The notes beneath the pieces are model-generated. The model was not told where the DNA came from, did not search any database, and worked only from the letters and a program-made list of their open reading frames with translations. Position numbers and translations under genes: made by a program. 39,549 nt of DNA from a virus: IMG/VR virus record IMGVR_UViG_3300044970_001933, positions 1 through 39,549 of that record, one strand, 5' to 3'. Shown in pieces: positions 2,888-15,473 of this stretch. Numbering within the stretch: the stretch's first letter is position 1; every line of letters starts with the position of its first letter.

Positions 2888-3526
2888 ATGGCCACTTACA
2901 GTCGTGGTACATCAACCAACATTATCGTTGGTGCAGCAGCGCTATTCGTTGCTGATACAACTTTGGACGCTTCATCATTAACCGCCTTTGAGTCTTCAAA
3001 GACTTTCAGAGACACACTTACTAATGATGCTGACTATACAAACGTTGGTTATACAATGAACGGTCTCGAACTACAGTTCCAACCTGACTTCGGCGAAGTT
3101 ACAGTTGACCAGATTCTTGACGTTGCAAAACTTTACAAGCAAGGTATGCAGGTTTCTCTTGCAACAGCATTCGCTGAAGCAACACTAGAAAACCTTCTAC
3201 TTGCTTTGGCTTACGGAGATTCTAAACTCTCTGGAACAAAGTCAACTTCAAACGGACAGGCACTTAACCTTTCTGCAGGAGATATTGGCGAATGTCCAGT
3301 TGAGCGTGGTATCGTTGCAGTAGGCCCAGGAACAGGCGATTGCGTAGATTCTGCTTATATCGAGCGTGTATACACAGCATACCGTGCACTTTCAATTGAA
3401 AATGTTACAGTATCTGCAAAGCGTGACGAGGCTTCAATGTTTGAAGTTTCATTCCGTCTACTTCCAGAAGATGTTTCTGGTTCATATGGTAAGATCGTAG
3501 ATCGTACCTGGACACCAGCATCATAA
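2888..3526 (+). CDS. Major tail (tube) protein
   Basis: This 212-residue protein should form the tail tube by stacking hexameric rings. The evidence is position (after the terminator, before the assembly chaperones), size, and a composition rich in Ala, Thr, Ser and Val with strand-like segments (GLELQFQPDFGEVTVDQIL; YIERVYTAYRALSIENVTV; FEVSFRLLPED). It has its own promoter, a strong ribosome site (AAGAGGTGA, 5 bases before ATG) and a terminator. Its codon use differs from its neighbours: Arg is mostly CGT and Lys often AAG, whereas adjacent genes favour AGA and AAA. That fits very high expression. I am confident of the role even without a signature motif. Confidence 0.8.
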   Translation: MATYSRGTSTNIIVGAAALFVADTTLDASSLTAFESSKTFRDTLTNDADYTNVGYTMNGLELQFQPDFGEVTVDQILDVAKLYKQGMQVSLATAFAEATLENLLLALAYGDSKLSGTKSTSNGQALNLSAGDIGECPVERGIVAVGPGTGDCVDSAYIERVYTAYRALSIENVTVSAKRDEASMFEVSFRLLPEDVSGSYGKIVDRTWTPAS

Positions 3527-3545: not shown

Positions 3546-3578
3546 GGCCCATCTCTTAGGAGGTGGGCCTTGTTGTTT
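3546..3578 (+). terminator. Rho-independent terminator after the major tail protein
   Basis: A 9-bp stem (GGCCCATCT at 3546-3554 with AGGTGGGCC at 3561-3569, one G-T pair) encloses a 6-base loop and is followed by the T-rich run TTGTTGTTT. It lies 19 bases after the major tail protein stop. The T-rich tail overlaps the -35 box of the next promoter. Confidence 0.85.
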
Positions 3579-3601
3579 AATAGGGCATTTTGTGGTAGAA
3601 T
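3573..3601 (+). promoter_or_regulatory. Promoter for the G-T chaperone gene, nearly leaderless
   Basis: TTGTTT (3573-3578), a 17-base spacer and TAGAAT (3596-3601, preceded by TGG) form a good sigma-70-type promoter. The expected start point near 3607-3608 is only about 3 bases before the ATG at 3611. No Shine-Dalgarno sequence precedes that ATG, so the transcript would be almost leaderless, as is common in actinobacteria. A second TAGAAT lies at 3601-3606. Confidence 0.6.
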
Positions 3602-3610
3602 AGAATTTAT

Positions 3611-4321
3611 ATGGCTACAACAATATACAGAAGTGCTATTATTCATTTATTTGATGGCACAGAATTAGAGATTATCCCATTAAAGATTAAGTATCTTCGT
3701 GAGTTCATGGATGCTTTTGAAAAGGTAAAAGATACAAGTGGGGATCAAGAGGCAATAGAAAAACTTGTAGAATGTGTAAGAATTTGCATGAAGCAGTATT
3801 ACCCAAGAATATCTAGTTCCACTGAAGATATAGAAGACAATGTTGACATGCAGACAATCTATACTATTTTAGATATTGCTGCAGGAATAAGAATTAATAA
3901 GCAATCTAAAGAAACAGTTAAAAACCAAGTAGAAGAAAGTGGCGATACCTGGGATACTTTAGATTTAGCAAAGTTAGAGTCTGAGGTTTTTTTGCTGGGA
4001 ATTTGGAAAGACTACCAAGAGTTAGAAAAATCTTTGTCAATGGCAGAACTGATGGCAACACTAGAAAGCAGCAGAGAACTTGACTATAATGAAAAAAAGT
4101 TTTTGGCTGCCATTCAGGGGGTTGATTTAGATAGTGAATCTGGCAGCAGTAAAGGCCAGAAAGAATGGGAAGACATGAAAGCCAGAGTATTTAGTGGCGG
4201 GGCAACTTCTGATGCAAATGATGTTCTTGCTTTACAGGGTCAGAATGCACAAAAAGCAGGGTTTGGAATTGGGATGGGTCTTGACTATGAAGACGGTAGA
4301 GACCCCTCTCTTATGCTATAA
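3611..4321 (+). CDS. Tail assembly chaperone, continuous G-T fusion
   Basis: This 236-residue protein is a tail assembly chaperone, the class that coats the tape measure and recruits tube subunits. Residues about 10-100 form the G-like domain (FDGTELEIIPLKIKYLREFM). Residues about 128-236 form the T-like tail (LGIWKDYQELEKSLSMAELM, then a run with KKFLAAIQGVDLD, and an end with QNAQKAGFGIGMGLDY). In most siphophages the T part is reached by a programmed frameshift; here it is read through in one frame. The run GTTTTTTTG at 3986-3994 lies exactly at the G-T junction. Its G domain is paralogous to the next gene. It appears weakly translated: no ribosome site and AT-rich codons, fitting a minor product. 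Confidence 0.8.
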   Translation: MATTIYRSAIIHLFDGTELEIIPLKIKYLREFMDAFEKVKDTSGDQEAIEKLVECVRICMKQYYPRISSSTEDIEDNVDMQTIYTILDIAAGIRINKQSKETVKNQVEESGDTWDTLDLAKLESEVFLLGIWKDYQELEKSLSMAELMATLESSRELDYNEKKFLAAIQGVDLDSESGSSKGQKEWEDMKARVFSGGATSDANDVLALQGQNAQKAGFGIGMGLDYEDGRDPSLML

Positions 4322-4322
4322 T
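4314..4322 (+). promoter_or_regulatory. Extended -10 promoter candidate for stand-alone G
   Basis: TGCTATAAT is a perfect extended -10 overlapping the stop codon of the G-T gene, 25 bases before the next ATG. I see no good -35 at normal spacing; extended -10 promoters can work without one. It would let the stand-alone chaperone be transcribed separately from the fusion gene. Confidence 0.5.
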
Positions 4323-4347
4323 TAACATAGCCTATCTAGGAGGAAAA

Positions 4348-4680
4348 ATGGCAACAACAGTACATGAGGGTGAAGAACTTATTCTTATGGATGGCTCAAA
4401 GATCAAGGTTCGTCCCTTGAAGATTTCTTTGCTACGTCCATTTATGAGTAAGTTTGAACAGGTGGCAGCGGTGGCAGAAGATAACGAAAAGTCTATGACT
4501 CTTCTTATTGAATGCGTACAAATTGCTATGCAGCAGTATAAGCCAGAACTTGCAAAAGATCTGAATGCTTTAGAGGAGATCATGGATCTTCCAACAGTCT
4601 ATAAGGTAATTGAGGCGGCTTCGGGCGTCAAACTTACTGATGCAAATTCTTTGCTGAACACAGTTCTTGCAAACAATTAA
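4348..4680 (+). CDS. Tail assembly chaperone, stand-alone G-like copy
   Basis: This 110-residue protein contains only the G-like domain. It aligns with the first part of the preceding gene: MDGSKIKVRPLKISLLRPFM here against FDGTELEIIPLKIKYLREFM there, then LIECVQIAMQQYKPEL against LVECVRICMKQYYPRI. By eye this is about 40% identity over 55 residues. A strong AGGAGG ribosome site lies 5 bases before the ATG and the gene uses host-preferred Arg codons (CGT), suggesting an abundant product, as expected for gpG relative to gpGT. It ends 17 bases before the tape measure gene, the normal gene order. Confidence 0.8.
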   Translation: MATTVHEGEELILMDGSKIKVRPLKISLLRPFMSKFEQVAAVAEDNEKSMTLLIECVQIAMQQYKPELAKDLNALEEIMDLPTVYKVIEAASGVKLTDANSLLNTVLANN

Positions 4681-4697: not shown

Positions 4698-7600
4698 ATG
4701 AGTGATGTTAATGCCAATATTGGCGTACATATTGATACGTCGTCCGCATTAGCAGAACTCAAAAATCTACAACGTCAACTTGCAAATTTCCACGCATCAA
4801 TAGCAAAAACTAGTGCCGCAGCAACAATGGCACAAAAGGGATTGCAAAACAATCTCCTGAATTCTATCAATGCTACGGGGCAGTTTTCTGCCACGATGGG
4901 CACTGTTAGATCATCTACGGAGTCGTTTACTCACGCATTAGAGTCTAATAAACTTTCAATGCGTGAGTATTTCCGTTATGCTGGAGGGTCATCAAAAACC
5001 TTTGGAAGACTGTTCAGACAAGAGTTTGACACAATTGGCAAGGTAGCAGAAGATCGTGTCAAGAAGATGCAGACTCAATATATTAAGATGGGTCGTGACG
5101 CTAGCGGTGCTATAAAGGCTATGGCAATTACGCCACAAACCTTGAACATGAACGACTATGCCACAAAGACAGCATTAGCAGCACAAAAACAAGCACTTTT
5201 TAATCAGGTAGTTAGACAAGGATCAACTAGCCTTTTAAACTTTGGTAAGAATACACAATGGGCTGGCCGCCAACTTATGGTTGGTTTTACAATTCCGCTT
5301 GCTTACTTTGGCACAACTGCTTCTAAGGTATTTATGGATCTTGAAGCGCAGGCTATCAAGTTTAAGCGTGTTTATGGCGATATGTTTACAACTGCCGATG
5401 AAACAAACAAAGCATTAGCAGAAGTTGAAAAATTAGCAGAAGGTTTTACTAAGTATGGAGTTGCAGTAAGTAAGACTATGGAAATGGCAGCAGCGGCTGC
5501 GGCAATGGGTAAAACTGGTGCAGACCTCACAGCGCAGGTATCTGAAGCAACCAGACTTGCAGTCCTTGGTGGCGTTGAACAAGAGCAGGCGCTTGAAACT
5601 ACAATTTCTCTTACAAATGCTTTTGGTATAGCAGCAGAAGATCTTGCATCAAAAATTAACTTCCTTAACTCTGTAGAAAACCAAACAGTTGTATCTATTG
5701 AAGATCTGACAATTGCAATTCCAAAAGCAGGACCAGTTGTTCAACAACTTGGCGGAGATGTAGAAGATTTAGCATTCTTCCTTACAGCAATGAAGGAGGG
5801 TGGAATTAATGCATCAGAAGGCGCTAACGCACTTAAGTCTGGTCTTGCGTCATTAATTAACCCAAGCACAAAAGCAAGTAAAATGCTTGCAGAACTTGGT
5901 ATAAATATTAAGGCGATAGTTGAAGGAAATGATGGTAATGTCAGACAAACTGTAATTGATTTTTCAAAAGCACTTGACACACTTGACCCCCTTAATCGTG
6001 CTCGTGCAATTGAACAATTATTTGGTAAGTTCCAGTTTTCTCGTTTGTCAACACTGTTTCAAAATGTAACCAAAGAAGGAACACAGGCAAGTAAAGTTTT
6101 AAAGATGGCTGGCGCTTCAATAGAAGAACTTGCAATTTTATCTGAACGAGAATTAAAAACAGTAGAAAACTCTGTTGGTGTACAGTTTAAATCAGCGGTA
6201 GAAGAACTTAAATTGGCAATTGCCCCAATTGGAAAGACCTTCCTTGAAGCAGTAACTCCAATCATTAAAACCATTGGAGGCCTTCTTGATAAGTTTAATA
6301 ACCTTGGAGATGGAACAAAGAAGTTTATTGTAATTGCTTCTACCCTTGTTGGCATTATTGGTCCAACACTTTTGATGACCTTTGGTTTGCTTGCTAACGG
6401 TGTAGCAAACATCATTAAACTATTTCTTGCTCTTCGTGGAGGATTTTTAAGATTAGGCGGAAATAGTAAGATTCTTGCAGAGCAAACTAACTATTTGAAT
6501 GCAGAACAGTTAGAATCAGCAACAGTTGCCGCATCTCTTAATCAGGCACACACAAGACTTACACAATCATTTACTGCAGAAACTTCTGCTGTAAGAGCAC
6601 TCAGACAGGCATACATAGAAGCAACATTAGCCGCAGCAAATTTTGCTAGAGCAAACCCAGGAATGATGATGCCAGGAGGCGCCAAGGTCCCTAAGAAGTT
6701 TTCAAGAGGAGCAACCTATGTTCCAGGAACAGGAAACAAAGACACAGTTCCATCTATGCTTACTCCTGGAGAAGCAGTAATACCAAAACGAGTTGCACAA
6801 GACCCTAGGTTCCAGCCAATAATTGATGCAATGGTTAACGGCAATCTTCAAGGGTTTTCAGAAGGATCAGTCAGTGTAGGATCAAAGTCATTTAAAACAA
6901 GTAGTCAAAAAACTGCAAGAGATCTTGAAAAGACAATTGCTGAACTGATATCTAAGGGAATTCCTGAAGAAAAAATTGTTCGTGCATTAGAAAGAAATAT
7001 TGAGCGTGGCCGCCCAATGAATGCCTCACAATTAAAGAGAAGACTTTCTATTGGTAGAGGTTCTTCATCTGGATCATCTGCTCCTTCATCAATAAGAACA
7101 CTTGCAAAGCAGTCCCAATCTGGGTTCCTTCAAGAAACAGAAGCGGTAAAGAAAGCATTAAAGGAACAAGGCGTAGTATTAACTCCTGCACAAGAAAAGA
7201 ATTTGTTTAATGTTCAAGCGTCCCACATTGATGAAGCACGAACTGGTGGAGTAAAAGAGTGGAAGGCCAATAATCTTGTTGCTGATTTAGGATATGTAAA
7301 TAACTACATCAACACAGTAAAGGGTAAACTTGGAACAGATTTACTTAAGATGACTGATGCTAGATTACAAGAACTTGGCATTGACAGAAAAGAACTTCAA
7401 AAACTTCAGGCTGGAACACACCCAACTACAGCGGACGCAGCAAAAACATTAAGAGCAGTTGCACAATACGACTCAATTCGTAATCCAGCATCCTATCAGG
7501 CAAAAGCAGTTGTTGCTGGGCTAGAGCATAGATCTAGAACTGGTTTTTATGCACAACCAATGAAGACATTGGCAGAGACTCAACCAGTTTCAAGCAGGGC

Positions 7601-10600
7601 AGAAAGAGCAATAAAGTCTAGAGTAGACTTAATAGAGCAAGAAAAAAATGCAAGAGCAGGTAACGACTCTCAGCAGATAATGAAACAAATAGATAGAGAC
7701 ATAAGAAGAAGCGCATTAGGAAAACAATCTCCAACAAACTTTGGAACTCAAATATCTCCAACAACTGGGCATAGTTTTCCAGTTAAAGGTTTGGGTGGCG
7801 TTTATCAAAAGCCAGACGGAACCCTAGCATTTGTTAAGCCAGTTATTGATGCAAAAGCGGCATTGGCTGAACAAAGAGCAACAATTATTGCAAGAGATGT
7901 ACATGGTCTAGATGCGCCTGAACAGCAAATTAGAACTATGCTTGACCCAACAGATCCAACAGGAAAAAGAAAACTTATTGTACTAGAGTCTCCTTTTGAT
8001 CCTAGGTTTGATCCAAGTAAGATGACTGGCAAATTTACAAAAGATCAATACTTTAGACAACTCGTTGCTGCAAACCTGCGTGGAGACAAAGACTTAGGAA
8101 GAGGAAATCTTTCAGGAAATGTGCTTGCAGATGTTGGAACTGCAGGAGTTTTTGAAAAGGCTTCAGGAAAAAGAGATTTTGCTAAAACTATGCCTTCTAT
8201 GGCAGAGCAAGCAAAGATTAATCTTCTTGGAGTAAAGGGCGGAGCAAAAAGATTCTTTGCCGAATCAACACTTGATATTCCTAGAGGAATGACTGCAGAC
8301 GAATACCACAGTAGAATGATAAAAGAAATTGACAAGGTTCTTCCAAAACTAAGGGATACTCTTTCAAGGCTTGATCTAACACCTGCAGAAAAAACTGTCT
8401 ACTCTGGAATGGTAGCAAGACTTGAAGAAGGAAGAAAAGTTAACTGGAGAGAATTCCACAAGATGCATTCTTCTGCTCTTGTAACTAAAAAAGAAGCACT
8501 CCAGGATAAAAAGACTGGTGATATAACAGCGATTAAAGGCAAGCCAAAACCTAAAAGGGCTGTATCAAGTTCTGGCAAAATATCTGACAGCGTAATTACT
8601 CAAATTCCTCCAGGTAAAACAGTTGTTCAAAAACCAAAGGGATTTATTAGTTCTCGTATTGCAGGTAAGTTTATGCTTCCAGGCTATGCGAAAGCCCCTA
8701 CTGCAGCAGGTGCAACCATTGGAGATATTTCTCAATCACAAAGACTGTCAAGGGCACAAATTCTTGCTGCTACAGAAAAAATAAGTTTAAACCAGGCCAA
8801 AAAGAAAATTGCAGCAGAGGCAAAACTAATTGCTGCTATGAAAGAAACAACAGAAGCACAAAAAACAACAAAAGAAAAACTAACAAACTTTAGTAACAAG
8901 GCAAATCTTGGTATGGGTGCAATGAGTGGTTTGACAATTGCAGCATCCTTTGCTGGTGGAAGACTTGGAGAAGTGGCTAACACACTTATGCCATTTGTAT
9001 TTGGTCTTCAGGGTATTGTATTGTTGTTGCCTCTATTGGCTAATCCTTGGGTTGCCGCAATCGCTGCCATCGCAGCGGTAGGTGGAATGATGTGGAAACT
9101 GGCTCGTGATGTTGAAAATGCGAGAAAAGAAGGAGTTAATCTTGCTAAGGCAATGAGTATGACTTCTGAAAAACTACAAAGTCTTTCATCCATAACTGGG
9201 ACAGTAAGTGCTACGGAAGCAGCAGACAGAAAACGACAAAATACATTAACTGGTGAAAGTGCAGTTCAAAGAAAAGTTGGTCAAAATATTCTTGGTAGTG
9301 ATTTTGGTAAAGGTCTTTTGGCTGATATTGAAAAACAAGCAAAGTCTGGACAAGGAATTCAAGAAATTGGTAGAAATATATCTACCAGTCTTTCTTATGC
9401 AATTATTCAAGGAGTAATAACAACAGACCAAGCAAAAAGTATTGCTTCTGCACTTGGAGAAGAACTAAAGAGTTATGAAATACCAGCAGTTATTAGCGGT
9501 AGATTAGTTAAACTTTTTGGACCTAATGGTGAAAACCTAGCAACAGATCCTCTTAAGATTACTCTTGAAATTCAAGAAGAGTCAATGACTAGACAGGCTG
9601 ACTTCTTTAAGACTGCGCTTGAACAATCAGTTAGCACAATAACATTTACAAACTTAGGAAATGTTGTCACGGGCGGCGTTATGGCAGCCATAGGTGGAAC
9701 CATGGCAGTAGCAGGCGTTCCAGCCTTTGCTGCAGGCGGAGTACCAGGTGTTGGGCTTATGGCATCAGGAACTGCTCTAACGGCGGCAGGTACAGCAAAG
9801 GTAGCATCTGGATTTTCAGATCAAAATCAACGTAGAGAAGTAAATGCAAACCTTGGTGCCGCAGCCCTACAACTTGGTTTAGAGCAAGTAGTTCTAAACA
9901 ATGGGCTAGTTGACTCATTAAATAAACAGTATGAAATTAAACTTAAGATGGCTCAAACAGATGCCGAAATTAAAAAAATTGAAGATGAAAGAGCAGCAGC
10001 AATAGATGCACTTAATGCAAAAAATACAGAAGCGCTAAATCTTCTTATTTCTCAAAAAGATGCTTTTGGCCCAGAAATATTTACTAAGGGTATAAATGCA
10101 GCAATAGATGCACTTTATCCAACAGGACCTCTTAAGGTTTTTGCTGATGAAGCAAAGAAAGAACTAGAAGGAATTAAAGATGCAGACTTTAAGGCACTGC
10201 TACAGGTTCAATTTGCTGGTGGTGCACTTGACCCAGTAACCATAATGAAACTTGCCAACAACCAAGAACTACAAAGTAAATTTACAGTTATGGTTGAACA
10301 GCAGGGTAGTGAGCAGGCAAACCTAGTAATGCAACTACTTATGAAGGCTGGAACAGACGAAACTAACCTTCCAATCTTTATGGACATTTTAAATAAAGAT
10401 AAAAAGAATTTTGATAAAAACCTTGATGCTATTTCAGTTCTCGCTAACATGCAACAAAAATATGGAATAACAATTGATGTTAATGATGACGGCGTAACAC
10501 AGATTAAAGAAGTTGTTGCAGTAACCGACAAACTAAAAGGAATAAAAAATGAAGAACTTTCTAAAGAGGCATTCTTTGATCTTGGAATAACTGGAGATAT

Positions 10601-13600
10601 GACAGGACCAGACTTTGATAAACTCTGGACCACTCTTGTCGGAACAGCAAATACAATTAACAAAAAGGTAGTAATTGACTTTGTTGCTTCTCAGGACAAG
10701 AATGTCGTAGATCAGTATATGGCTGCTATGGGAATTACTGCTCCAAAGGGCAGGCTTGGAGCAATGCTTCGTAAATCACTTGAGCCAAAAGCAGCAGCAT
10801 GGAATACTGGAAGACAGGGTAAGGTTACTGTAGATCCCGATCCGACTGAAGAGACGGATGTAACAACAACAGGAAGAAACACAGTATTTGATAGTATACT
10901 TCAAGATCTTAAAAACACTAGAAATGCAACTATTAATGCCATGGGTGGTGCTAAAGAATTAATGCGTATTCTTGGCGGTAAAAAAGATATACAGTTATTT
11001 AATGGAATAGATCAACAACTATCTAAGTTGGGGGCTAACTCTGATTTTATAGACTTTGTTGGTGGGCTAGAAAATGCTGTTAAAGAAAAAATTATTAAGA
11101 TTAACAAGCAGGGAGTTGTTTCATACGGAGAATTTGGTGAGGCAGCCAAGAAGGCATTTGATGAAAAACAACTTGGAGCGTTTAGTTCTAAGTCAGCAAT
11201 AGCAATAAAAGAATTACAAGGGCAGCGTTCAGGGTTTGTGGCACTAAGGGCTGCTGGAGTTGAGACCGCAGATGCCGTTGAAATGGTTGCAGATGCCACG
11301 TTCATGGTTTCTCTTGCTGCTCAAAAAAATCCTGAAGAAATTAAAAGAATGACCGATGAGTGGAAGATAATGAAGAGAGAGATGGATCTTACCACCGCCG
11401 CAACAAATCCACAAGAATATTTCAATGACCAGATGGCTATTGCAGAAAGACAACTTAGTCATCAAGAAGAGATGGCAAGAAGAACTTACGAACCACAAAT
11501 TGAGGCTACAGAGAAATTAGTTAAAGCAAACAACATCCTTATTGAGCAGGCACAGCGTAAACTTGAACTAGATGCTACATATGGTAGCCGACAAATTGAC
11601 AAGATTAATGCTGAGATTGATGCATTAAACAGACAGATTGCCACAGGGATAGATGCGACAATTCAAGCACTTTCAGAAGAGTCAGCCAAACTCTCTGAAG
11701 ACCAAGCAACCATTGCTAAAACAGTTGATGCTATTAATGAAAAATATGATTTACAAGAAGAAGCACTTTCAAAAATATCAGATCTAAATAAAGATATTAT
11801 TGATGAAAAGAAAACTCAGATATCTCTTGCTGATGCATTAACACGAGGAGATATTTCAGCAGCAGCCCAGGCTGCAGAAGATATGAGGTCCGCTTCTGCA
11901 AGTCGAGCACTTAGTTCTGCCTCAGATGCAATTTCTTCAGCAAGAGGGTTTGAGGTTGACGCAGTTACTGGATCTATAACTGGAAAAAATTCATCTGCTA
12001 TTACAGAAAGACAATATCAGATTGATCGTGAAACATATAGACTTGGAGTAGAACGTGCCAAGACAGAAGCATTAATTGCAGCAAAACAAGAAGAAATCTA
12101 TAAGATTGACTTGTTGCGTAAACCAATTCTTGCAGAAATTACAAGACTTGAAGATCTTAATTATAATTATCTAAACAATGAAATTCCTTTATTAAGAAGT
12201 AAGTTAGACCAAGAACTTTCAGCAATTGATGCTCAACGTGAAAAGTGGACAACTGCACAACTTGCTATTGATTCTGCTAATTTAAGCACCGAAACATTTA
12301 AGGGCAAACTTGAAAAAGCAGAAAGTTTTGTAGACTCTATAGCAAAACTATGGGGAAAGATTACAGACAAAGATGTTAAAATAACAATTCAAACAATTGA
12401 AGAAGTTATTAAGCAACAGGCATCATTCGTAAAAGCAGGAACTGTAACAACACAAAGTGGAGCAGTCATAGCAGTAGATGCTAACGGAAGAGCAGCAGAT
12501 GGATCTGTTCCTATATCGAAGTCTTCTGAAACTTCAGGAACAACGCTAGTTCCTGTTCCTAATTTTACTCCATACCTAGATCCACCAAAGAACACACTAA
12601 GCCCAGGAGATAAAGGCTTTGTTGGTCCCGTTGCACCAGAACCACCTATTGTAACTCCAAAGGCAACAACAAACTCCGCAAGAAGGCTTATGCCATTAGA
12701 AAGGCTGGCTCTTGCTAAGGGTGGAATGGTTCCTAACAATTTTATTGCTGGAGAATATGCCCAGGGAACAGATACAGTTCCAGCAATGCTTACTCCAGGA
12801 GAATATGTACTAAGAAGAGATGCAGTAAAGAAGTATGGAGTTAAGCAACTTGATGCAATGAATGTTGGATATTATGACAAGGGTGGAGAAGTATCTAAGT
12901 TTGCATCAAGACCAAAATATGGAATAAAATCTAATCCTGAAGAAAAAGGTATAGGTAGTTTCTTTAAAAAGAGTGACCGAGATAAATGGACCGCAGAATC
13001 TAAGTACAATAGTTTTCTGTCTACACACGCTAGAAAACTGGCAGAACGAGATAAACGAATACAAGAAATGCTTAACAAGTCTCCTCTTACGTCTTGGATG
13101 GGCGCAGAAGGTCTTGGTACTTCTGGTTTACTTAAGTCCATGACTGGACAGGGAACTAAGTCTGACAAAGTTATGGCTGCACTATTCCCACTAAATTTCA
13201 TGGGTATGGGAAAATTTACTAAAGAAGGATCAAAAGCAATAAAACCAGTATCTTCTGGAGTTGAAGAGTTGGGTTCAAAGATTTTGAAAGACAACTTAGT
13301 AACTAAAATATCATCAATGCTTCCAAAAATAAGTGCTCCTGCTGGCAAATTTATGGGCACACTAAAGAAAATAATTAATTTACCACAAACCAGAAGAGCA
13401 GAAATAATAGCAGCAGAAGCAGCAGAAGCAAGAAAAACCGCAGAGGCTGTAGAGTTTCTTAAAAATAATCCACCAGCATCAAGGCCTACTGGTCCTGGTG
13501 CGCCACCATCACTATGGGATGGGGTAGACGATAGTTCTGGCATGCCTGATGATTTTTGGACTTCTATAGATGATGCTCCTGTTGATCCTAATAGTTTTTT

Positions 13601-15473
13601 CATGCAAAACGCTTTACAGCAAAAACCCCCAAGTGCTTTAAGAAAAACTTTAGGTAAAATTGGTTCTACTGTTGCTAAGCCTGTAACCGTTCCAGCAAAA
13701 CTTTTAGCAAGAGCCGCCAAGATAGGTAAAAATTCTTGGGACGTAGGACAATCCAGTTTTAGATGGGCTGGAGATTTTGACTATTACGGCAGAACTACGC
13801 TGATGAGAGAAATTGCTAGTAGAACAATTGGAAAACTTGCAGAAAAGGTTAATCCAAAGGTAACAATGGGCTTAAAATTTGACCAATTTCACGCAGGGAA
13901 AGCCAAATCAATTTTAGATCTGATTTCTCCATTGCAAACATACATGAGGCCACTAGACGATACAACTATTGGTCTAAGATTTGGGCTTAAATATAGAAAT
14001 ATCCCGAAAAATATTTTAGAAAAAAACATAAAGCCTCCAGTAATGAAAGCATTAAGTTCTGCTACTGAACTAAAAAATTCAGTAAAAAATAAATTTACCA
14101 CAATAAAAGACAAAATTACTCCAGATATATTGTCAACAGATAATCGTTTATTTAATTATCTTTATTCTAGTACTCCTGTTGGTGGATTGATCGCAAGAGG
14201 AGCAGCAGCAAGACTAGGTTTCAAAAAAACAGAAAAGGTTAATAAATCAGGCCTAGAACTTTCAATGGAAAAACTTTTAGAACAGGCTTTCTATCATGGA
14301 GGAAATCTTCCAGGTAAAATAAAAAATAGATTCCCAGTTCCTAATCCCATGGATAACAGCAACTACGTTCCAGCAAATAGAACTTCAAATTGGTTTGCAC
14401 ATGATTTTTTTGCAACAGTGGGCATTCCTCAAGCACAACAATATGCAATAACAAAAAATGCTGAGGGGATGGCAGAAGGAGCCTCTGATATATTTAGAAC
14501 ATTTTTTAATCTAGATAAATCAAAAACTTGGGATATGAGACCAGGATTCAAATCCCTGTATTCTCAAAATCCAGAGGCATACAGATTACTTGAGTCATAC
14601 ATAGCAAAAACAAGAGGCATTAAGGCTGCAAGGGAATTTTTACTGGGAGAGCGTGTTGCTGGAACAGCAATGGGTAAAATGGAAGGATTCGGTGGTACAC
14701 CGTTTGAAAGAGGAACTCAAGGAGCAACACCTTTTACTGGTCTTAATCTTGGTGATGTTTTGGCTAAGACAGTTGATGGTGTACCGACAAGAGTTATAGA
14801 TAGTATAATTCATAAAGGTGGAATTGGTAATTGGGGACTTCCAGAAAACCCACACACAGTTATTGCAACTATGAATCCAAAAACAGTTACACAAAATTTA
14901 ACAAAACTTTTTCCAAGAGAACTTGTTGCCTCAACAATAGGTGCGCCAGAAGAAATGATACCAAGCATAATGGAAAGAATGCTAGATCAGGTTGCCAAAA
15001 CAGGTAAAGCAACTCCACTTCTTGCTCAAGGACACGTGGGAAGAAGAGTAATATCAGGGCCTACAGATAGAATAGCCATGGCAAGTGGTGGACTAGTTCC
15101 AAGATATTTGTCTAATGGTGGATACGCAGTGGGAACAGATACCGTACCCGCAATGCTAACTCCTGGGGAGTTTGTTATAAACAGAATAGCAACCAAGAAG
15201 TTTGGTCCAATGCTTAATGACATTAATAATCTTCAGTATCCGTCCATGATGCAGGATCTAAGCCCTGCAACATATAAAAATACCAGATCTTCAACTGTTG
15301 TCCCTGCTGTTAATACCATGTCCACAAGTGTAAGCGACAACTCCAGAACCATGTATAATTATGGTATCAGCGTTAATGTTTCTAACTCTAATGCAAGCAC
15401 AGATGATATTGCAAGAGCAGTTATTACTCAAATTAGAAACATTGATGGTCAAAGAATTAGAGGGCAGAGATAA
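4698..15473 (+). CDS. Giant tape measure protein with embedded enzyme-like modules
   Basis: At 3591 residues this sets tail length and is ejected with DNA at infection. In order I see: a helical N-terminus; a TP901-type tape measure core (about 210-420); hydrophobic segments (about 540-580, 1435-1475, 1655-1705) that could enter the host membrane; a PI3/4-kinase/HipA-like region (about 1010-1290); an EF-hand-like loop (1927-1938); a long coiled coil (about 2240-2515); an ADP-ribosyltransferase-like region (about 3190-3405); and three DTVPxMLTPGE motifs at about 680, 2690 and 3480. The ribosome site AAAGAGGTGA is strong. Typical tape measures have 700-2000 residues; the excess here is largely the globular-looking inserts. 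The tape measure identity is firm; the enzyme folds are inference. Confidence 0.92.
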   Translation: MSDVNANIGVHIDTSSALAELKNLQRQLANFHASIAKTSAAATMAQKGLQNNLLNSINATGQFSATMGTVRSSTESFTHALESNKLSMREYFRYAGGSSKTFGRLFRQEFDTIGKVAEDRVKKMQTQYIKMGRDASGAIKAMAITPQTLNMNDYATKTALAAQKQALFNQVVRQGSTSLLNFGKNTQWAGRQLMVGFTIPLAYFGTTASKVFMDLEAQAIKFKRVYGDMFTTADETNKALAEVEKLAEGFTKYGVAVSKTMEMAAAAAAMGKTGADLTAQVSEATRLAVLGGVEQEQALETTISLTNAFGIAAEDLASKINFLNSVENQTVVSIEDLTIAIPKAGPVVQQLGGDVEDLAFFLTAMKEGGINASEGANALKSGLASLINPSTKASKMLAELGINIKAIVEGNDGNVRQTVIDFSKALDTLDPLNRARAIEQLFGKFQFSRLSTLFQNVTKEGTQASKVLKMAGASIEELAILSERELKTVENSVGVQFKSAVEELKLAIAPIGKTFLEAVTPIIKTIGGLLDKFNNLGDGTKKFIVIASTLVGIIGPTLLMTFGLLANGVANIIKLFLALRGGFLRLGGNSKILAEQTNYLNAEQLESATVAASLNQAHTRLTQSFTAETSAVRALRQAYIEATLAAANFARANPGMMMPGGAKVPKKFSRGATYVPGTGNKDTVPSMLTPGEAVIPKRVAQDPRFQPIIDAMVNGNLQGFSEGSVSVGSKSFKTSSQKTARDLEKTIAELISKGIPEEKIVRALERNIERGRPMNASQLKRRLSIGRGSSSGSSAPSSIRTLAKQSQSGFLQETEAVKKALKEQGVVLTPAQEKNLFNVQASHIDEARTGGVKEWKANNLVADLGYVNNYINTVKGKLGTDLLKMTDARLQELGIDRKELQKLQAGTHPTTADAAKTLRAVAQYDSIRNPASYQAKAVVAGLEHRSRTGFYAQPMKTLAETQPVSSRAERAIKSRVDLIEQEKNARAGNDSQQIMKQIDRDIRRSALGKQSPTNFGTQISPTTGHSFPVKGLGGVYQKPDGTLAFVKPVIDAKAALAEQRATIIARDVHGLDAPEQQIRTMLDPTDPTGKRKLIVLESPFDPRFDPSKMTGKFTKDQYFRQLVAANLRGDKDLGRGNLSGNVLADVGTAGVFEKASGKRDFAKTMPSMAEQAKINLLGVKGGAKRFFAESTLDIPRGMTADEYHSRMIKEIDKVLPKLRDTLSRLDLTPAEKTVYSGMVARLEEGRKVNWREFHKMHSSALVTKKEALQDKKTGDITAIKGKPKPKRAVSSSGKISDSVITQIPPGKTVVQKPKGFISSRIAGKFMLPGYAKAPTAAGATIGDISQSQRLSRAQILAATEKISLNQAKKKIAAEAKLIAAMKETTEAQKTTKEKLTNFSNKANLGMGAMSGLTIAASFAGGRLGEVANTLMPFVFGLQGIVLLLPLLANPWVAAIAAIAAVGGMMWKLARDVENARKEGVNLAKAMSMTSEKLQSLSSITGTVSATEAADRKRQNTLTGESAVQRKVGQNILGSDFGKGLLADIEKQAKSGQGIQEIGRNISTSLSYAIIQGVITTDQAKSIASALGEELKSYEIPAVISGRLVKLFGPNGENLATDPLKITLEIQEESMTRQADFFKTALEQSVSTITFTNLGNVVTGGVMAAIGGTMAVAGVPAFAAGGVPGVGLMASGTALTAAGTAKVASGFSDQNQRREVNANLGAAALQLGLEQVVLNNGLVDSLNKQYEIKLKMAQTDAEIKKIEDERAAAIDALNAKNTEALNLLISQKDAFGPEIFTKGINAAIDALYPTGPLKVFADEAKKELEGIKDADFKALLQVQFAGGALDPVTIMKLANNQELQSKFTVMVEQQGSEQANLVMQLLMKAGTDETNLPIFMDILNKDKKNFDKNLDAISVLANMQQKYGITIDVNDDGVTQIKEVVAVTDKLKGIKNEELSKEAFFDLGITGDMTGPDFDKLWTTLVGTANTINKKVVIDFVASQDKNVVDQYMAAMGITAPKGRLGAMLRKSLEPKAAAWNTGRQGKVTVDPDPTEETDVTTTGRNTVFDSILQDLKNTRNATINAMGGAKELMRILGGKKDIQLFNGIDQQLSKLGANSDFIDFVGGLENAVKEKIIKINKQGVVSYGEFGEAAKKAFDEKQLGAFSSKSAIAIKELQGQRSGFVALRAAGVETADAVEMVADATFMVSLAAQKNPEEIKRMTDEWKIMKREMDLTTAATNPQEYFNDQMAIAERQLSHQEEMARRTYEPQIEATEKLVKANNILIEQAQRKLELDATYGSRQIDKINAEIDALNRQIATGIDATIQALSEESAKLSEDQATIAKTVDAINEKYDLQEEALSKISDLNKDIIDEKKTQISLADALTRGDISAAAQAAEDMRSASASRALSSASDAISSARGFEVDAVTGSITGKNSSAITERQYQIDRETYRLGVERAKTEALIAAKQEEIYKIDLLRKPILAEITRLEDLNYNYLNNEIPLLRSKLDQELSAIDAQREKWTTAQLAIDSANLSTETFKGKLEKAESFVDSIAKLWGKITDKDVKITIQTIEEVIKQQASFVKAGTVTTQSGAVIAVDANGRAADGSVPISKSSETSGTTLVPVPNFTPYLDPPKNTLSPGDKGFVGPVAPEPPIVTPKATTNSARRLMPLERLALAKGGMVPNNFIAGEYAQGTDTVPAMLTPGEYVLRRDAVKKYGVKQLDAMNVGYYDKGGEVSKFASRPKYGIKSNPEEKGIGSFFKKSDRDKWTAESKYNSFLSTHARKLAERDKRIQEMLNKSPLTSWMGAEGLGTSGLLKSMTGQGTKSDKVMAALFPLNFMGMGKFTKEGSKAIKPVSSGVEELGSKILKDNLVTKISSMLPKISAPAGKFMGTLKKIINLPQTRRAEIIAAEAAEARKTAEAVEFLKNNPPASRPTGPGAPPSLWDGVDDSSGMPDDFWTSIDDAPVDPNSFFMQNALQQKPPSALRKTLGKIGSTVAKPVTVPAKLLARAAKIGKNSWDVGQSSFRWAGDFDYYGRTTLMREIASRTIGKLAEKVNPKVTMGLKFDQFHAGKAKSILDLISPLQTYMRPLDDTTIGLRFGLKYRNIPKNILEKNIKPPVMKALSSATELKNSVKNKFTTIKDKITPDILSTDNRLFNYLYSSTPVGGLIARGAAARLGFKKTEKVNKSGLELSMEKLLEQAFYHGGNLPGKIKNRFPVPNPMDNSNYVPANRTSNWFAHDFFATVGIPQAQQYAITKNAEGMAEGASDIFRTFFNLDKSKTWDMRPGFKSLYSQNPEAYRLLESYIAKTRGIKAAREFLLGERVAGTAMGKMEGFGGTPFERGTQGATPFTGLNLGDVLAKTVDGVPTRVIDSIIHKGGIGNWGLPENPHTVIATMNPKTVTQNLTKLFPRELVASTIGAPEEMIPSIMERMLDQVAKTGKATPLLAQGHVGRRVISGPTDRIAMASGGLVPRYLSNGGYAVGTDTVPAMLTPGEFVINRIATKKFGPMLNDINNLQYPSMMQDLSPATYKNTRSSTVVPAVNTMSTSVSDNSRTMYNYGISVNVSNSNASTDDIARAVITQIRNIDGQRIRGQR
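6726..6782 (+). repeat. Tape measure DTVP-x-MLTPGE motif, copy 1
   Basis: Residues 677-695 read GTGNKDTVPSMLTPGEAVI. This is the first of three copies of a motif often seen in tape measure proteins of Gram-positive phages. It follows a glycine-rich link and marks the border between the membrane-like segment and the first large insert. Confidence 0.85.
7725..8565 (+). other. Kinase-like (PI3/4K/HipA-type) region inside the tape measure
   Basis: Residues about 1010-1290 show, in order, a glycine-rich strand pair (GLGGVYQKPDG), a Lys in FVKP (K1047), a helix with Glu (AEQRATIIARDVHGLDAP, E1058), a hinge-like LESPF, and then GDKDLGRGN followed by NVLADVG (D1130, D1132, N1137, D1145). That order matches the ATP-grasping Lys, helix Glu, catalytic loop and metal-binding Asp of atypical kinases. 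The catalytic loop is not canonical (no DRH), so activity is uncertain. This is a fold guess from pattern only. Confidence 0.42.
12765..12818 (+). repeat. Tape measure DTVP-x-MLTPGE motif, copy 2
   Basis: Residues 2690-2707 read GTDTVPAMLTPGEYVLRR, directly after a glycine-rich linker (NNFIAGEYAQ) and before DAVKKYG. It separates the coiled coil from the C-terminal insert. Confidence 0.88.
14250..14915 (+). other. ADP-ribosyltransferase-like region inside the tape measure
   Basis: Residues about 3190-3405 contain FYHGG (H3200), then NWFAHDFFAT and an AQQYA helix, then a strand with FRTFFNLDK, and finally IHKGG followed by TVIATMNPKTV. This resembles the HxG, YFT...A..YA and closing strand pattern of ADP-ribosyltransferase domains found in phage polyvalent proteins. 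The final catalytic Glu is not obvious at the usual place, so the domain could be inactive or divergent. Confidence 0.48.
15132..15185 (+). repeat. Tape measure DTVP-x-MLTPGE motif, copy 3
   Basis: Residues 3479-3496 read GTDTVPAMLTPGEFVINR, again after a glycine-rich link (RYLSNGGYAV) and before ATKKFG. It closes the ADP-ribosyltransferase-like insert and precedes the short C-terminal tail. Confidence 0.88.

Follow-up and report, generated by a model that had tools for sequence, protein, structure and literature searches.

A G-T fusion gene and a second G gene probably replace a frameshifted tail assembly chaperone locus in a clade of uncultured tailed phages

The window, by which we mean the whole 39,549-nucleotide stretch of viral DNA analysed here (IMG/VR record IMGVR_UViG_3300044970_001933), carries two tail assembly chaperone genes between the major tail protein gene (MTP) and the tape measure protein gene (TMP), all four on the + strand and in the order MTP, GT, G, TMP. 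MTP (2888..3526), of an Ig-domain family, matches phrog_2175 (E 4.5e-34), and its orthologues in Streptomyces and Rhodococcus phages are annotated "major tail protein". GT (3611..4321) is a 236 aa reading frame that joins in frame a G domain (aa 1-97) and a T domain (about aa 113-236). It is followed by a stand-alone G of 110 aa (4348..4680), a short tail assembly chaperone. The TMP gene (4698..15473) encodes 3,591 aa and sits directly after the chaperone genes, as in the relatives; it is recognised by PhageMin_Tail (PF10145, E 1.8e-24). That is the single Pfam match in the protein, at residues 252-443, and the length of the protein implies a very long tail.

Both chaperone reading frames had been picked out by a sequence-only reading, which described them as paralogues about 40% identical by eye in the G domain. 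The BLASTP figure is close to that, with 36% identity and 67% positives over 96 aa between the GT N-terminus and stand-alone G (E 3e-24). The relatedness of the two proteins also shows in their matches to the same protein family, phrog_10504 (1.4e-21 for GT, 7e-21 for G). The C-terminal portion of GT matches phrog_10474, the T part, with an E-value of 1e-14. Pfam holds no useful family for GT or stand-alone G. With tblastn, both proteins match Streptomyces and Rhodococcus phage proteins annotated as tail assembly chaperones, and the T part of GT aligns to the T that Streptomyces phages carry in the -1 frame. Because the Stanwilliamsviridae relatives of the two parts are annotated G and T, we identify the long reading frame as an in-frame GT and the short one as a stand-alone G. 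An actinobacterial host is likely for this phage, since Streptomyces and Rhodococcus are the hosts of its nearest named relatives and its terminase is 53% identical to a Streptomyces phage terminase.

AlphaFold2 models of the two chaperones are of middling confidence, with a mean pLDDT of 68 for GT and 75 for G. In a Foldseek search the G fold matches a predicted tail assembly chaperone of an uncultured phage (E 6.5e-7), and clear fold matches are limited to predicted viral models: against the PDB, Foldseek gives no match at E 0.001, and a sequence profile search of the PDB found nothing. Amongst the PDB chains that we realigned, the HK97 chaperone 2ob9 comes out on top, but the match is weak (Z 4.3, rmsd 5.1, 86 aligned).

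Scanning IMG/VR and phage records, we collected 247 loci and classified them by stop-to-stop ORFs and HMMs. The window's order, MTP-GT-G-TMP, occurs in 172 of them. Another 55 loci have the order MTP-G-T-TMP, and three more of this kind are cut before TMP (58 in total). The remaining loci are cut by contig ends or broken. The fusion could in principle be an error of sequencing or assembly at an ordinary frameshift locus, given that an indel of one base is enough to join two frames in a metagenomic contig and that one locus, L127, does have a broken GT. The agreement of the 172 loci across contigs refutes this explanation, to which we assign practically no probability: the in-frame fusion and a second G with its own promoter-like box recur in many metagenomes, and no stop interrupts the fusion although its linker is variable in both length and sequence.

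In all 58 G-T loci, which come from Streptomyces, Rhodococcus and metagenomic phages, T overlaps the end of G in the -1 frame. The overlap usually has conserved GAC CCA AAN or GAC CCG GAA codons, and in the Rhodococcus phages NiceHouse and Dorin it has GGGAAAA. Depositors have annotated the joined gene in Yaboi, NiceHouse and Dorin. Judging from the frames, their conservation and this annotation, these relatives appear to frameshift. Among the 50,697 phage records, we found no cultured phage with the fusion arrangement in the matches whose architecture was read; all matches are less than 60% identical, and each one whose architecture was read is of the frameshift type. The sole match in genome_contigs, L247 (CAINGU010000031.1), is also a frameshift-type locus. 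Its contig is labelled as an uncultured cyanobacterium MAG and is probably a misbinned phage contig. L127 (5215-5968) was considered as a further frameshift form and rejected; its GT is disrupted within T by a short tandem duplication, either a sequencing error or a true mutant.

We built trees of MTP and of T, neither of which includes the duplicated domain, and rooted them on the Rhodococcus phages. The fusion phages form one clade in both trees (SH-aLRT 99 each). Together with four frameshift-type phages (L232, L234, L246 and L247), they make up a larger clade (96 for MTP, 94 for T), itself nested in both trees among the remaining frameshift phages. With the fusion phages forming one clade nested among frameshift phages, frameshifting is most simply ancestral and was replaced once. 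The proposal that a gene duplication stands here in place of a frameshift is well supported by this placement, by the -1-frame T of every G-T relative and by the plain linker of the fusion described below. In a tree of the G domain, the N-termini of GT (GTn) form one clade, the stand-alone Gs form another and the two are sisters (supports of 91, 94 and 98, respectively; further G tree supports, in the same order, are 95/53, 100/98 and 100/99). AU tests do not reject trees in which either G or GTn is grouped with the four nearest frameshift-type phages (p 0.23, 0.24). As these tests are indecisive, an origin of the second G copy within the fusion lineage is likely but not proven.

The two genes differ in the signals that precede them. 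Between MTP and GT there is an intrinsic terminator (3546..3578) consisting of a 10-bp stem (3546-3569) and a T-rich tail, and a terminator-like hairpin is present there in 92 of the 92 pairs checked (median -20.9 kcal/mol). Downstream of it, a predicted extended -10 promoter, TGTGGTAGAAT (3591..3601), has its box 9 nt before the ATG of GT. We collected 93 pairs that are distinct and intact, but related to one another and not independent. An extended -10 box lies 5-12 nt before the ATG of GT in 93/93 of these, and a Shine-Dalgarno precedes GT in none, as in the window. A box of this leaderless type was found at 0/86 MTP starts, 28/457 other ORFs and 45/1860 random positions. Leaderless genes, about a fifth of the genes in Actinobacteria, are marked by a TANNNT some 12 bp ahead of the start codon (PMC3160421). 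With its extended -10 box so close to the ATG, the GT mRNA is predicted to be leaderless or nearly so, probably starting at the ATG or within about 3 nt of it. The sequence-only reading was right that the fusion lacks a ribosome site; it missed that GT does have start signals, namely its own extended -10 behind a strong terminator.

Stand-alone G has the features already ascribed to it, an AGGAGG Shine-Dalgarno (4338..4343, + strand) and its own extended -10. The latter is a putative promoter, TGCTATAAT (4314..4322; TATGCTATAAT likewise ends at 4322), and its -10 box overlaps in the window the stop codon of GT (4319-4321). A perfect TATAAT is found 23-30 nt before the ATG of stand-alone G in 92 of the 93 pairs, and a Shine-Dalgarno in all 93. 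Conservation of the whole anatomy across the 93 distinct intact, though related, pairs excludes a chance origin. In the frameshift-type phages that we show, G is likewise preceded by a promoter-like box, a leader and a Shine-Dalgarno, so stand-alone G looks like the keeper of the older layout and GT like the altered copy. In L012 (6712-6886), and also in L013 and L099, the gap between GT and G is widened to 172 nt. Sequence in the widened gap is what remains of the C-terminus of a recombination endonuclease VII family protein (PF02945, E 8.8e-11), which may be a homing endonuclease that decayed in its place between the chaperone genes.

GT might still yield some short product by frameshifting, as dnaX does, with the extra G merely adding to it. 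The window GT has a potential slip site, A AAA AAG, at codons 160-162, and T TTT TTG at 126; a -1 shift at the former leads to a stop 8 codons on in 13 of the 30 pairs with GAA AAA AAG. These sites lie inside T and not at the G/T border, and the heptamer is not conserved, AAA AAG being present in 33 of the 90 pairs bearing the KKF motif, with synonymous variation at background level. In the linker itself, we see no dip in synonymous variation over the 93 pairs, and a slippery heptamer occurs in only six of them. A hidden frameshift in GT was thus rejected for want of a conserved signal, and we hold residual frameshifting to be very improbable. The window has no -1 T frame overlapping the G of GT and no second T frame after stand-alone G. 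We also rejected a hidden frameshift at the end of G, where TTTAAAT or TTTAAAC is found in 16/93 pairs but not in that of the window; the sequence that follows contains no T-like frame.

The promoter and Shine-Dalgarno differences, codon use and the conservation of G together point to more G than GT, as in lambda, in which the G:GT ratio is 30:1 and crucial (PMC5009743). The contrast in codons pointed out earlier, AT-rich for the fusion and CGT for G, is seen in the window: among its arginine codons GT has seven AGA and one CGT, and its GC content is 37%, against two CGT and 41% for stand-alone G. A codon index gives 0.49 for GT, 0.60 for G and 0.71 for MTP, which is its own reference, and G is closer than GT to MTP codon use in 86 of 92 pairs. 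Stand-alone G also evolves more slowly, Gs being more alike than GTns in 919 of 990 comparisons. A difference in expression strength, as proposed in the sequence-only reading, is in this way supported indirectly, by promoter match, Shine-Dalgarno, codon use and the slower evolution of G. Actinobacteria can translate leaderless mRNAs efficiently, so a GT without a Shine-Dalgarno need not mean low GT. Moreover, G may also be translated from GT transcripts, in which case the expression of the two genes would not be fully independent.

Alternatively, both genes could be made in similar amounts, with stand-alone G having a new task, possibly at a second tape-measure binding site on the very long TMP, so that the ratio is not what was conserved. 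Besides the length of TMP, the average sequence difference between G and GTn of about 59% would suit such a division of labour. We find this explanation rather unlikely, because stand-alone G retains the conserved positions of the family and evolves slower than GTn, and because two conserved but differing start signals suggest unequal expression.

We consider it probable that in this lineage an ancestral frameshift locus was replaced by two genes with different expression signals. The replacement would have happened once, in a single large clade of tailed, uncultured relatives of Stanwilliamsviridae that probably infect Actinobacteria, when a G/T locus read by -1 ribosomal frameshifting gave way to two paralogous genes. 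The first copy would have become the in-frame G-T fusion, separated from MTP by a terminator and with its own predicted extended -10 promoter giving a probably leaderless mRNA. The second would have become the stand-alone G, which points the same way as TMP and has a consensus promoter, about 20 nt of leader and a strong Shine-Dalgarno. Two promoters and two modes of starting translation would in this way keep G abundant and GT scarce. By analogy with lambda, G would form a coat on the tape measure protein, and the T part of GT would bring in tail tube subunits. To the fuller proposal, that the lineage abandoned frameshifting and fixes its chaperone stoichiometry with a leaderless GT and a separately promoted, Shine-Dalgarno-led G, a dosage device of two promoters and two initiation modes, we give an even chance.

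The pair resembles the lambda-type gpG/gpGT system, which includes the Stanwilliamsviridae of Streptomyces and NiceHouse and Dorin of Rhodococcus, in its place between MTP and TMP and in that the short and long forms share their N-terminal domain; the G and T domains of the Streptomyces and Rhodococcus members are homologous to those of the window. Unlike in that system, T is in frame with G in the window and a second gene supplies the short form, and the fusion loci have neither an overlapping -1 T frame nor a conserved slippery signal. Some T4-like phages are described as having one short gene and one fused long gene (PMC10885494, citing Vladimirov, Gautam and Davidson 2022). As far as that description goes, theirs too are separate short and fused long genes used without a frameshift. 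The window pair belongs to a different phage lineage, the long-tailed relatives of Stanwilliamsviridae, and according to the trees derives from a Stanwilliamsviridae-like locus; here the relatives of the frameshift type are near enough for the change to be located on a tree. Conserved contrasting start signals are a property of the window-type pairs, the T4-like pair being compared by its description alone. In certain Microbacterium phages, two chaperone ORFs appear to be separately expressed (PMC7302621). These are likewise actinobacterial phages whose chaperone ORFs are thought to be expressed without frameshifting, but the text of that paper available here describes two separate ORFs and does not report a G-T fusion with a second G copy. 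The idea of two genes is therefore already known. What is new is its presence in this lineage, the placing of the switch on a tree from a frameshift-type ancestor, and the pairing of a start of leaderless type with a Shine-Dalgarno-led one.

For annotation, these loci are a warning that two paralogous chaperone genes can be the complete set, with no frameshift left to "find". Textbooks explain frameshifting in tailed phages by the ratio of short to long chaperone. A lineage without the frameshift, set beside frameshift-type sisters, offers a natural test of how phages fix that ratio, in which one may ask whether frameshifting is needed for something beyond dosage, such as linked synthesis, and in what other ways a many-to-one ratio can be fixed.
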